Part shown: positions 21,537 through 24,678 of the stretch, one piece after another
Position numbering within the stretch: position 1 is the stretch's first letter
Layout: every line of letters starts with the position of its first letter
From: an uncultured Flavobacteriales bacterium
GTDB lineage: Bacteria > Bacteroidota > Bacteroidia > Flavobacteriales_C > GCA-002722245
Direction of reading: 5' to 3'
DNA: 44,537 bases
Assembly (NCBI GenBank): GCA_905182585.1
Contig: CAJJCC010000012.1
Span: 1 to 44,537 of the forward strand
Made by a program: the position numbers and the translations under genes
Notes under the pieces: generated by a model
Told to the model about the DNA's origin: nothing
Databases searched by the model: none
The model's input: the letters and a program-made list of their open reading frames with translations, nothing else

Positions 21537-22310
21537 TTAATTTCTATTTATAGAATTAAGAATCGTTAATTGATTTTGAAGGAACCTTGTCTTAACTAAT
21601 TCAAGATTTGCGAGTACCGAACTTAGGGGTAAAAAATGGGTCATTCTTTCAACCCAACCAGAAATAACTGCTGGGTCATAAGAATACGACACATTACGTA
21701 AATCCTCAACCAACAAGAACTGAGTAGACCCCATTATTTTCACTCCTAAATTATTTAGCTTTTCTAATCTTACGGTTAAATGCTTAGCGTGATCCTTATC
21801 ATAAGAGAAATAAGTTGCGGCAACATCCATATTATCTTTTCCCAATGGGATATCCATATCGTCTACACCGCCAGTATAATCCACTAATCGCTTTTTATCC
21901 TCATCAATTAAATCACAAAGTTCATGTACTAATTTAGAATATTCAACTACATCCACATTAGCGCTAACATTAAATAATTTAGCATTTTCAGCCATTTGAT
22001 TATTAATACTATTCGTGCCTTGATCCAACATTGCAAATGCATTTAACACATCTCTAGTATTGCCGATTGCAAAAGTAAACACACCATGCGTCATTACAAA
22101 AAAGAAAAAGTAAACATAGTATGTCGTAATCTTAACTTCGCTCTTCTTTCTAAATCTCGCTATGAAATAAAATAACATTCCAAAAACTGACAATGTGATT
22201 CCAAAAACCAATCCTACTGTTGCTCCAGGCCAATGCATGGATTTAAAAATCACTCCAAAAAAGACTAAAATATTCGTAATGATTAAAAGGACATTCGCAA
22301 CTTTTCTCAT
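21537..22310 (-). CDS. GldL-like N-terminal membrane domain with GldM-like segment, hypothetical
   Basis: FGVIFKSMHWPGATVGLVFGITLSVFGMLFYFI (GldL-N-like two-TM unit) followed by a third TM and TRDVLNAFAMLDQGTNSINNQMAEN, resembling GldM N-termini. Confidence 0.6.
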   Translation of the reverse strand: MRKVANVLLIITNILVFFGVIFKSMHWPGATVGLVFGITLSVFGMLFYFIARFRKKSEVKITTYYVYFFFFVMTHGVFTFAIGNTRDVLNAFAMLDQGTNSINNQMAENAKLFNVSANVDVVEYSKLVHELCDLIDEDKKRLVDYTGGVDDMDIPLGKDNMDVAATYFSYDKDHAKHLTVRLEKLNNLGVKIMGSTQFLLVEDLRNVSYSYDPAVISGWVERMTHFLPLSSVLANLELVKTRFLQNQLTILNSINRN

Positions 22311-22537
22311 GCGTCTAAGATTGAATCGTTTCTTTTGCTGAATTTCTCTTCTTCAACTTCCTCTTTTTTATGCTGTCTGATTTTATAAATCAACATCAAT
22401 AAACCTGCTATTCCAGCCCAAAGATATCCACCAATTTGTAAAACCTGCCCTCCTGGCCAATGTTGAATTTTAAACAAAATTCCAAAAGCCATTAATAAGA
22501 ACGCAAGAAATGAAATGATATAAACGGCTAGTCTCAT
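22307..22537 (-). CDS. Small two-TM protein, GldL-N-like (76 aa)
   Basis: FGILFKIQHWPGGQVLQIGGYLWAGIAGLLMLIYKI; 4-nt overlap with the downstream gene. Confidence 0.7.
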   Translation of the reverse strand: MRLAVYIISFLAFLLMAFGILFKIQHWPGGQVLQIGGYLWAGIAGLLMLIYKIRQHKKEEVEEEKFSKRNDSILDA

Positions 22538-22542
22538 AAAGT

Positions 22543-24678
22543 TTACTTTTTATAAATAATTTCAGAGATTCCTTCAATTTTACCAATAATTCTAAACTCG
22601 GTTCTACGGTTCATTTGACGACCTTCTGGATTATCAGATCCATCTGCATTCTTATTCGGTGCAATTGGTTCTTTTTCTCCGTATCCTTTTGCCTGTAATC
22701 GCTTACGTGCTATTCCTTTTCCTATTAAATAGTCAACTACTGATTGCGCTCTCTTTTGGGATAGTTTATCATTGTAAGCATCACTTCCAATTGCATCTGT
22801 ATGAGAACCAATTTCAATAACTATATCTGGGTTATCCATTAAAATTTTAAACATCGTCGTATCAATTACGGTTTTTGAGCTATCTAACAAAGCAAACTTA
22901 TCATACTCATAATAGATGTTTTTTACAACGATAGGCTGAACGGAAAACTTCTTCATGTAAAAGTTTTTGATTATGGTATCCGACTCAACAATTCCTTCAG
23001 TAGATATTTCGAAGCTTTGGTTAAAATAGTTTTCTCCGTTTGCTTGTAAATTATATTCTTTTCCTTTTTCTAATTTAAAAAAGTAGTCACCACTATCCTC
23101 AGGTAAAACAGATTTGATTACCATTTCTCCACCCTCAATTGAGTCATCCAGCAAAACCAATGAAAGCGTAACAAATTTACTAGGGACAGTATCTATTAAA
23201 TCTTTATTCTCAACGATTTCAAACATCTTTCCCTGTACTCCGATATGAATGTAATGAAGCTCCTTGAAATTATAAATATCATCACAACAAGTTGGATTTT
23301 TTAAAGAAACCGATCCTACCCTATTAGAAACAAAATAACCCTCATCTCCATTCTTTGTTAATGAGTAATAAAGCTCATCTACGCTTGTGTTAATAGGAAA
23401 GCCAATGTTTTTAGGCACTGTCCAGTCCTTTAATTCACCAATCGTTTTAAAAACATCCAACCCTCCAAGCCCAGGCCAACCTGCCGAACTAAAGTGCAAT
23501 GTTTTGTTGTCTATATTGTAATTAGGAGAAAACTCGTCCAATTTTGTATTTAATTTACTTCCTCCATTTTTAGGCTTTTTCCATAGTTCCTTTTTTGGGT
23601 TAAACTCCGAATACCAAATATCCCAACCACCTCTACCACCTTCAATTCGGTTAGAGATAAAATATAATACAGGCACATCTTTTTGAAAATACCAACCTAA
23701 AGTTGGTTGAGTAGAGTGAAATCCTTTAACGTTAATTTCTTCATTCATTTTAACTGGCTCCATCCAGCCTTTTTCGTCTTCTTCTTTATCTGCATAATAA
23801 AGGTGAAACACTAATTTTCCTTTAATATTTCTTATTCCCCTTGAAAAATAAAATCTAGAACTGTCTTCATTAAAACAACCATTCCCGTTTTCGGTGTCCT
23901 CAAAATTAAACCAACCTTCTGCGTATTCGTTTTGCATTACCCAAGTTGAATCATTCATCTTTTGAGCAACATAGAACTTTCTATGGGGTACAACGGAATT
24001 TGAATCTTCAGCGTTTACATATACAATACTATCTGATCGTAAAGACGAATACAATAACATTGAATCATTTAAAGGTAAAGGTGAAAGTTCAACATGAGCT
24101 TTATTAATAGAGGTGTCAGGGTGGTAAATCCTTACATCCAACGTGTCTTCTAAAACAACAGGGGCAGCGTCACAACTTGCAACATATAATTTCACCCAAG
24201 ACCTGTATGTTCCTGAATCAGCAGCGTCTCTATAAACCTTTTTAAAAGCTAAAAAATTCTCCTTTGCTTTTTTATATTTCCCATTCATTAACTGCATATG
24301 AGCTAAATAAAATTGTGCTTTGGGGTATTTATCTGGCTTTTCCTCAAAAACAGCACTGTAAACTTTCTCAGCCTTATGATAATCACGAGATAACCTTAAA
24401 GCGTTAGCCATTTTATATTGATACTTCAATTTTAAAACTTGATACCTACCTGACAGAAAACCGCCCTTAGCAATAAGCTCATCGTTATCTTTTAAGAACT
24501 TTTTATAATAAGATAATGATCCAAAAAAATCTCCATTCTTAAAAGCTTTATCTCCTGCTTTACGAATTACTTTAGTTTTCGAATTGTAAATTTCTTCATC
24601 GACTTGGGCAGTCGCGAAAACGCTAAAAAATATAGCAAAAAGACAGGTAATCTTTTTAATATCTATCACAAGGAACAT
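22543..24678 (-). CDS. OmpA family protein with TPR and PD40/WD40-like repeats (PorE-like)
   Basis: C-terminal IVIEIGSHTDAIGSDAYNDKLSQKRAQSVVDYLIGKGI OmpA peptidoglycan-binding motif; KLDEFSPNYNIDNKTLHFSSAGWPGLGGLDVFKT PD40-like repeats; TPR-like N-terminus. ORF extends to 24729; M18 gives a better signal peptide. Confidence 0.9.
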   Translation of the reverse strand: MFLVIDIKKITCLFAIFFSVFATAQVDEEIYNSKTKVIRKAGDKAFKNGDFFGSLSYYKKFLKDNDELIAKGGFLSGRYQVLKLKYQYKMANALRLSRDYHKAEKVYSAVFEEKPDKYPKAQFYLAHMQLMNGKYKKAKENFLAFKKVYRDAADSGTYRSWVKLYVASCDAAPVVLEDTLDVRIYHPDTSINKAHVELSPLPLNDSMLLYSSLRSDSIVYVNAEDSNSVVPHRKFYVAQKMNDSTWVMQNEYAEGWFNFEDTENGNGCFNEDSSRFYFSRGIRNIKGKLVFHLYYADKEEDEKGWMEPVKMNEEINVKGFHSTQPTLGWYFQKDVPVLYFISNRIEGGRGGWDIWYSEFNPKKELWKKPKNGGSKLNTKLDEFSPNYNIDNKTLHFSSAGWPGLGGLDVFKTIGELKDWTVPKNIGFPINTSVDELYYSLTKNGDEGYFVSNRVGSVSLKNPTCCDDIYNFKELHYIHIGVQGKMFEIVENKDLIDTVPSKFVTLSLVLLDDSIEGGEMVIKSVLPEDSGDYFFKLEKGKEYNLQANGENYFNQSFEISTEGIVESDTIIKNFYMKKFSVQPIVVKNIYYEYDKFALLDSSKTVIDTTMFKILMDNPDIVIEIGSHTDAIGSDAYNDKLSQKRAQSVVDYLIGKGIARKRLQAKGYGEKEPIAPNKNADGSDNPEGRQMNRRTEFRIIGKIEGISEIIYKK

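Follow-up and report, generated by a model that had tools for sequence, protein, structure and literature searches.

The window analysed here, a stretch of 44,537 nucleotides from an uncultured Flavobacteriales bacterium, contains a pair of short overlapping genes whose larger product, P0001, had been read in a preliminary description as a fused "mini-GldLM", that is, as parts of both T9SS motor subunits joined in one chain. The locus therefore raises the question of whether such a fusion is real, whether it could work as a motor and, if not, what use the motor parts might serve.

Homology and domain layout of P0001

We found that the GldL and GldM homologies of P0001 are both real. A phmmer search against 177,635 PDB sequences returned only two matches, GldM (residues 121–257) and GldL (residues 15–58), both of which belong to one GldLM structure, 7SAU. 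Non-circular HMMs, built from canonical GldM only (68 rows) or from GldL genes adjoining gldM only (33 rows), also recognized P0001: the GldM-only HMM gave 45.0 bits (E = 6.1e-11, Z = 1e5) against 6.8 bits for the best of 1000 shuffles, and the GldL-only HMM gave 26.7 bits (E = 2.1e-5, Z = 1e5) against a best shuffle, again of 1000, of 4.9 bits. P0001 shares 31% sequence identity with the second GldM of the same genome (BLASTP, E = 3e-15 for a single comparison), and matches to GldM proteins of the same family reach E = 1.5e-14 per genome. In Pfam the protein is sub-threshold for both GldL_N (20.7 of 24 bits) and GldM_1st (18.2 of 25 bits), and it falls below the TIGR03513 equivalog (14.3 bits, cut-off 68.3), while its orthologue in a congeneric genome (G200) clears the GldM_1st cut-off with 34.4 of 25 bits. 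On this sequence evidence, P0001 is almost certainly a GldL-type hairpin, a third TM and a GldM D1 domain in one protein (Table 1).

Table 1. Positions of the gene pair, its predicted domains and the inserted segment in the window
Feature	Position	Strand	Evidence
P0001: GldL hairpin, GldM TM and GldM D1 in a single chain, 257 aa, ATG start	21537..22310	-	ORF, homology, AF2
GldL-type two-TM hairpin, P0001 residues 1–54 (predicted helices 2–24 and 30–54)	22149..22310	-	GldL-only HMM, 7SAU_C residues 15–58, AF2
FKSMHWPG motif, P0001 residues 22–29	22224..22247	-	Alignment
Third TM of P0001, about residues 62–84, positioned as the GldM TM helix	22059..22127	-	Hydropathy, AF2 helix 62–115, alignment
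GldM D1-type periplasmic domain, P0001 about residues 85–257	21540..22058	-	GldM-only HMM, 7SAU_A residues 121–257, Foldseek
P0002: GldL-type single-hairpin protein, 76 aa, upstream, 4-nt overlap with the P0001 start	22307..22537	-	
Lineage-specific segment of ~1 kb that holds the pair, flanked by recJ and the OmpA gene	21547..22552	.	blastn and tblastn synteny with G056, G198, G199 and G200

The hairpin region includes VIFKSMHWPGATVGLVFGITLSVFGMLFYFI (residues ~20–50), in which the Lys and His of the TM1 FKxxH motif are kept, as first described. The segment after the third TM, which had been likened to GldM, does align with it: TRDVLNAFAMLDQGTNSINNQ (residues 85–105) pairs with SKDLLNAFIFLEDGIDVTTKN of the same genome's second GldM. 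The chain ends at the D1 boundary, and D2-D4 and the GldL cytoplasmic tail are both missing; the term mini-GldLM holds for the fusion itself, but its GldM part is narrowed to TM and D1. The GldM TM motif (PRQ..MYLVLLAMLAMN, N-terminal in GldM) is poorly kept in P0001, which makes joint assembly with GldL uncertain.

A Foldseek comparison had been proposed in the preliminary description, and the first 17 PDB matches of the AF2 model of P0001 (pLDDT 80, pTM 0.66, expected helices present) are all GldM/PorM; the model of a three-hairpin relative, L145 (pLDDT 80.7, pTM 0.48), has three helices at its N-terminus and matches 7SAU GldM with a target TM of 0.85. Because GldM relatives were present in the first alignment and AF2 was presumably trained on GldM, these predicted folds serve as consistency checks and not as independent proof.

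The motor glutamate

The D2-D4 domains of GldM form the remaining periplasmic shaft toward the GldK/N ring. In GldL, E49 of TMH2 is strictly conserved and is required for SprB secretion (PMC8986121). The alignment places a hydrophobic residue at the E49 position in TM2 of P0001, and the Glu is missing in its orthologue too, bearing out the earlier reading. Indeed, an acid occupies this position in none of 159 fusion hairpins (both window hairpins included), all 159 of which retain both the FKxxH His and the Lys (or Arg in its place); eight carry an acid elsewhere in TM2, in five cases about one turn earlier. In 27 of the canonical GldL genes picked by adjacency to gldM (n = 31) the Glu lies at the expected offset; the other four have it displaced by a longer loop. 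The missing motor Glu agrees with the earlier view that P0001 is not a standard motor, and the joint loss of E49 and D2-D4 makes torque generation, or its transmission to the GldK/N ring, unlikely.

The gene pair and its location

The genome designated G200 carries a corresponding pair, encoding proteins of 92 and 254 aa with an identical overlap. Its larger protein is 41% identical to P0001, with the motifs FKxMHWPG, IPLxKxNxDxAAxYF and C-terminal LP..VL..L kept between the two, and the C-terminal tail of P0002 (...ILDA) recurs in its smaller protein. A similar tail, DNILD, is found in a third genome, G198, where the pair is a broken copy with stops. The searches of G056 and G199 (same genus) and of six genomes of the family's other genus turned up no P0001 orthologue. 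Two apparent short GldM orthologues were rejected, G158:C48 being a truncated GldM frame and G094:C16 a signal-peptide D1 protein without hairpins. Among the five genomes searched in the genus, the pair is therefore intact in two and decayed in one, and this sporadic distribution, together with fast evolution, suggests that it may be dispensable or heading to decay.

The pair shares its strand with the M43-PorP-OmpA genes and follows them directly, 5 nt past the OmpA gene, with T9SS-type genes nearby; a partnership with the OmpA/PorP operon was implied in the preliminary description. The recJ gene and the M43-PorP-OmpA block are syntenic in G056, G198, G199 and G200, yet the pair is absent from the site in all four. 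In G056, whose OmpA is 94% identical to that of the window, the recJ-OmpA gap is ~78 bp; the intact pair of G200 and the decayed copy of G198 each sit at a different site. The pair is thus a lineage-specific addition of ~1 kb that came to lie by the PorP/OmpA operon only recently, and its location beside OmpA accordingly says little on function. Synteny in these four genomes rejects the pair as an ancestral part of the operon. A recent foreign origin is unsupported by G+C content (33.5% for the pair, 33.5% for OmpA and 33.9% for the window). The equivalent slot in G200 (L226:3604-4482, minus strand) instead holds a reading frame that by eye looks like an SGNH-type hydrolase and may end in a T9SS sorting tail (again by eye), which suggests that the site after the OmpA gene takes variable insertions. 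The OmpA-like protein of the window (22543-24678, minus strand) scores best against the CHU_0125 and PorE families, far under both cut-offs.

Origin of the window fusion

To place the D1 domain we used a careful tree of 42 rows, in which the window and G200 proteins fall among family-f1 GldM and relatives, in a clade of 14 rows (100/100). A tree that forces them together with the PadR-linked and tandem fusions described below has a likelihood lower by 45.5 and can be rejected (p-AU 0.0002); a larger quick D1 tree agrees with the unforced placement. The branches of both proteins are long and their grouping as sisters is weak (59/92). The AU test also rejects the window protein as a reduced PadR-type fusion (p 0.0002, with the long branches as a caveat). 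Judged by these trees, the window fusion is independent in origin of the PadR type, and its D1 descends from the lineage's own T9SS GldM.

Full-length GldM is encoded twice in the genome (G000:C18:61749-62312, L001, and C29, L002). The GldM on C29 sits in a gldKLMN-type operon, while that on C18 has no adjacent GldL in the stretch read; this second type occurs in nine family-f1 genomes. Two further proteins inside the f1 GldM clade, encoded at L042:1102-2019 and L047:1447-2745 (both minus strand), combine a probable signal peptide at the N-terminus with a domain resembling GldM D1 and have no hairpins.

A wider family of GldL-GldM fusions

A single-protein query of the genome contigs returned no relative, but an alignment query did. 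In the class genomes and genome contigs searched, at least 74 distinct Bacteroidota proteins combine GldL-type hairpins with a GldM-type D1, a lower bound because the phylum-wide search scored the best five candidates per genome and these were mostly canonical GldM. At E ≤ 0.001, GldL_N matches 73 of the 74 and GldM_1st matches 61, several of them far over the curated cut-offs (for example, L023 with GldM_1st at 6.6e-27). The majority carry a pair of hairpins behind a helical N-terminal prefix that bears an LxDHxCC motif, and their genes directly follow a PadR gene, as is so for 47 of the 49 prefix-type fusions with enough upstream sequence. The prefix matches the permease-prefix/HAAS-like model NF038403 (perm_prefix_1) in 14 of the 74 members at E ≤ 0.05 (best 1e-7). 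Two-hairpin members that lack the prefix form a group whose position differs between the trees: with the PadR types in the careful one (88/83), nearer GldM in the quick one. Our literature search on GldL/GldM fusions, paralogues and homologues found no report of such a family among the papers covered.

The fusion architecture in general is thus widespread and unlinked to T9SS genes, most fusions lying behind a PadR gene, a pattern that the preliminary description would have counted against its reading; this does not extend to the window lineage, given the ancestry of its D1. Because GldM_1st is present in 188 of 198 class genomes, co-occurrence with the T9SS is uninformative. Among side observations, L149:2660-3592 (minus strand) encodes a two-hairpin GldL_N-like protein divergent from a fusion gene that is followed by a TPR/SpoIIE gene, and L146 (F. 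caeni), L139 and L170 are PadR-linked two-hairpin proteins of Flavobacterium whose C-terminal domain neither HMM recognized as D1.

Some fusion genes occur in tandem. The first gene (A) has three hairpins and the second (B) two, each with one TM and a D1, in 15 of 15 cases. The L126 and L172 tandems also fit this 3+2 pattern, with second D1 domains that were missed by the first HMM (that of L172 is weak). Three-hairpin genes without a partner occur at L138 and L176. The A genes and the B genes each form one clade (100/99 in the careful tree), which probably reflects a single origin with a conserved hairpin count and not repeated invention. Offset 16, roughly one turn of helix ahead of the E49 position, is occupied by Glu in the middle (second) hairpin of the tandem-A proteins L126, L129 and L130.

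Proposed function and alternatives

We give roughly even weight, for and against, to the reading that P0001 and P0002 form a non-energised pseudo-motor made from T9SS motor parts, which would act passively at the inner membrane in regulation or sensing. A GldM TM and D1 would have been copied from the lineage's own gldM to a position behind one GldL-like hairpin, and with the TM2 Glu and the D2-D4 shaft lost, torque would be neither made nor passed on. P0001 and P0002 would most likely assemble into a GldLM-like membrane ring, in which GldL-type hairpins surround a dimer of GldM-type TM helices and a D1 dimer forms the cap. Such a pseudo-motor would most plausibly mix with, or compete for, GldL/GldM, or else sense the envelope. 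The regulatory role raised in the preliminary description fits P0001; here we infer that role, a 5:2-like assembly, proton tightness with no proton flow, and contact with the real motor. The mechanism as a whole is at best evenly balanced and perhaps somewhat doubtful.

Alternatively, the pair could be a stand-alone envelope sensor that makes no contact with the T9SS motor and reports the periplasmic or membrane state as the PadR-linked fusions might, their HAAS-like cytoplasmic prefix relaying the signal to PadR. The PadR genes upstream of the prefix-type fusions and the perm_prefix_1 matches favor this, as does PMC11237479, which puts forward the HAAS-PadR dyad as an alternative to two-component systems. 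The window pair, however, has neither prefix nor PadR gene and its D1 lies outside the PadR-type clade, so that a PadR-type function is not simply transferable to it, and we regard this explanation as unlikely, if by no means negligible.

The position of the pair immediately behind M43-PorP-OmpA, among T9SS-type genes, would suit an inner-membrane docking partner for the PorP/OmpA/PKD-protein operon that helps to secrete or anchor the 1467-aa surface protein. Such a role is improbable given that four congeners have the operon without the pair, the G200 slot being filled by the unrelated hydrolase frame and G200's own pair sitting elsewhere. Equally improbable is a functionless, decaying relic in which a partial gldM duplicate was fused by chance beside a GldL-like hairpin: it would account for the sporadic distribution, the long branch and the decayed copy in G198, but the frames are intact and full-length, the overlap is conserved in two genomes at 41% identity with motifs kept, and the fusion architecture arose more than once.

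Returning to the pseudo-motor, these results suggest that evolution has repeatedly put motor parts to uses other than motion, the PadR-type fusions being independent and much commoner. More tentatively, and with rather less than even confidence, we propose that Bacteroidota repeatedly made out of the GldLM rotary motor a 5:2 complex that is covalently linked and proton-dead, with the PadR tandems as a sensor bearing a HAAS-like prefix and the window pair as an independent, minimal reinvention from its own GldM. If so, a motor scaffold became a sensor or regulator more than once, and fusions that form a Glu-less 5:2 ring would be natural uncoupled controls for the GldLM mechanism. The constant 3+2 hairpin count of the tandems provides structure-independent genetic support for 5:2 as the functional unit, and, through the PadR-linked members, the idea can be put to the test in Bacteroidota that grow in culture.

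Comparison with known systems

Like the HAAS-PadR dyad (PMC11237479), the wider fusion family places a standalone PadR gene beside a membrane protein with an N-terminal helical prefix that may be HAAS-like, and a GldLM-like sensor is not among the HAAS fusions described in the passages covered. The window protein differs from the dyad in having neither prefix nor PadR, its neighbors being OmpA and recJ.

P0001 shares with GldL/PorL (TIGR03513, PF22827) the two-TM hairpin and FKxxHWPG in TM1, but it lacks a TM2 Glu49 equivalent and the cytoplasmic tail, is fused to the GldM TM and D1, and scores under the GldL cut-offs. With GldM/PorM (TIGR03517, PF12081) it shares a TM followed by the D1 helical domain, and its predicted fold matches 7SAU, 7SAX and 6EY0; it differs in lacking D2-D4 and the N-terminal PRQ..MYLVLLAMLAMN motif and in the GldL hairpin added in front.

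Finally, the rotary motor has the composition GldL5:GldM2 according to a review (PMC9389320), which in the passages covered describes no fused form of these 5:2 motors. Compared with that composition, the PadR-type tandems supply 3+2 hairpins and two TM+D1 units, the same 5:2 parts list with 12 TM, whereas their outer and inner subunits are covalently joined and the proton Glu is missing.
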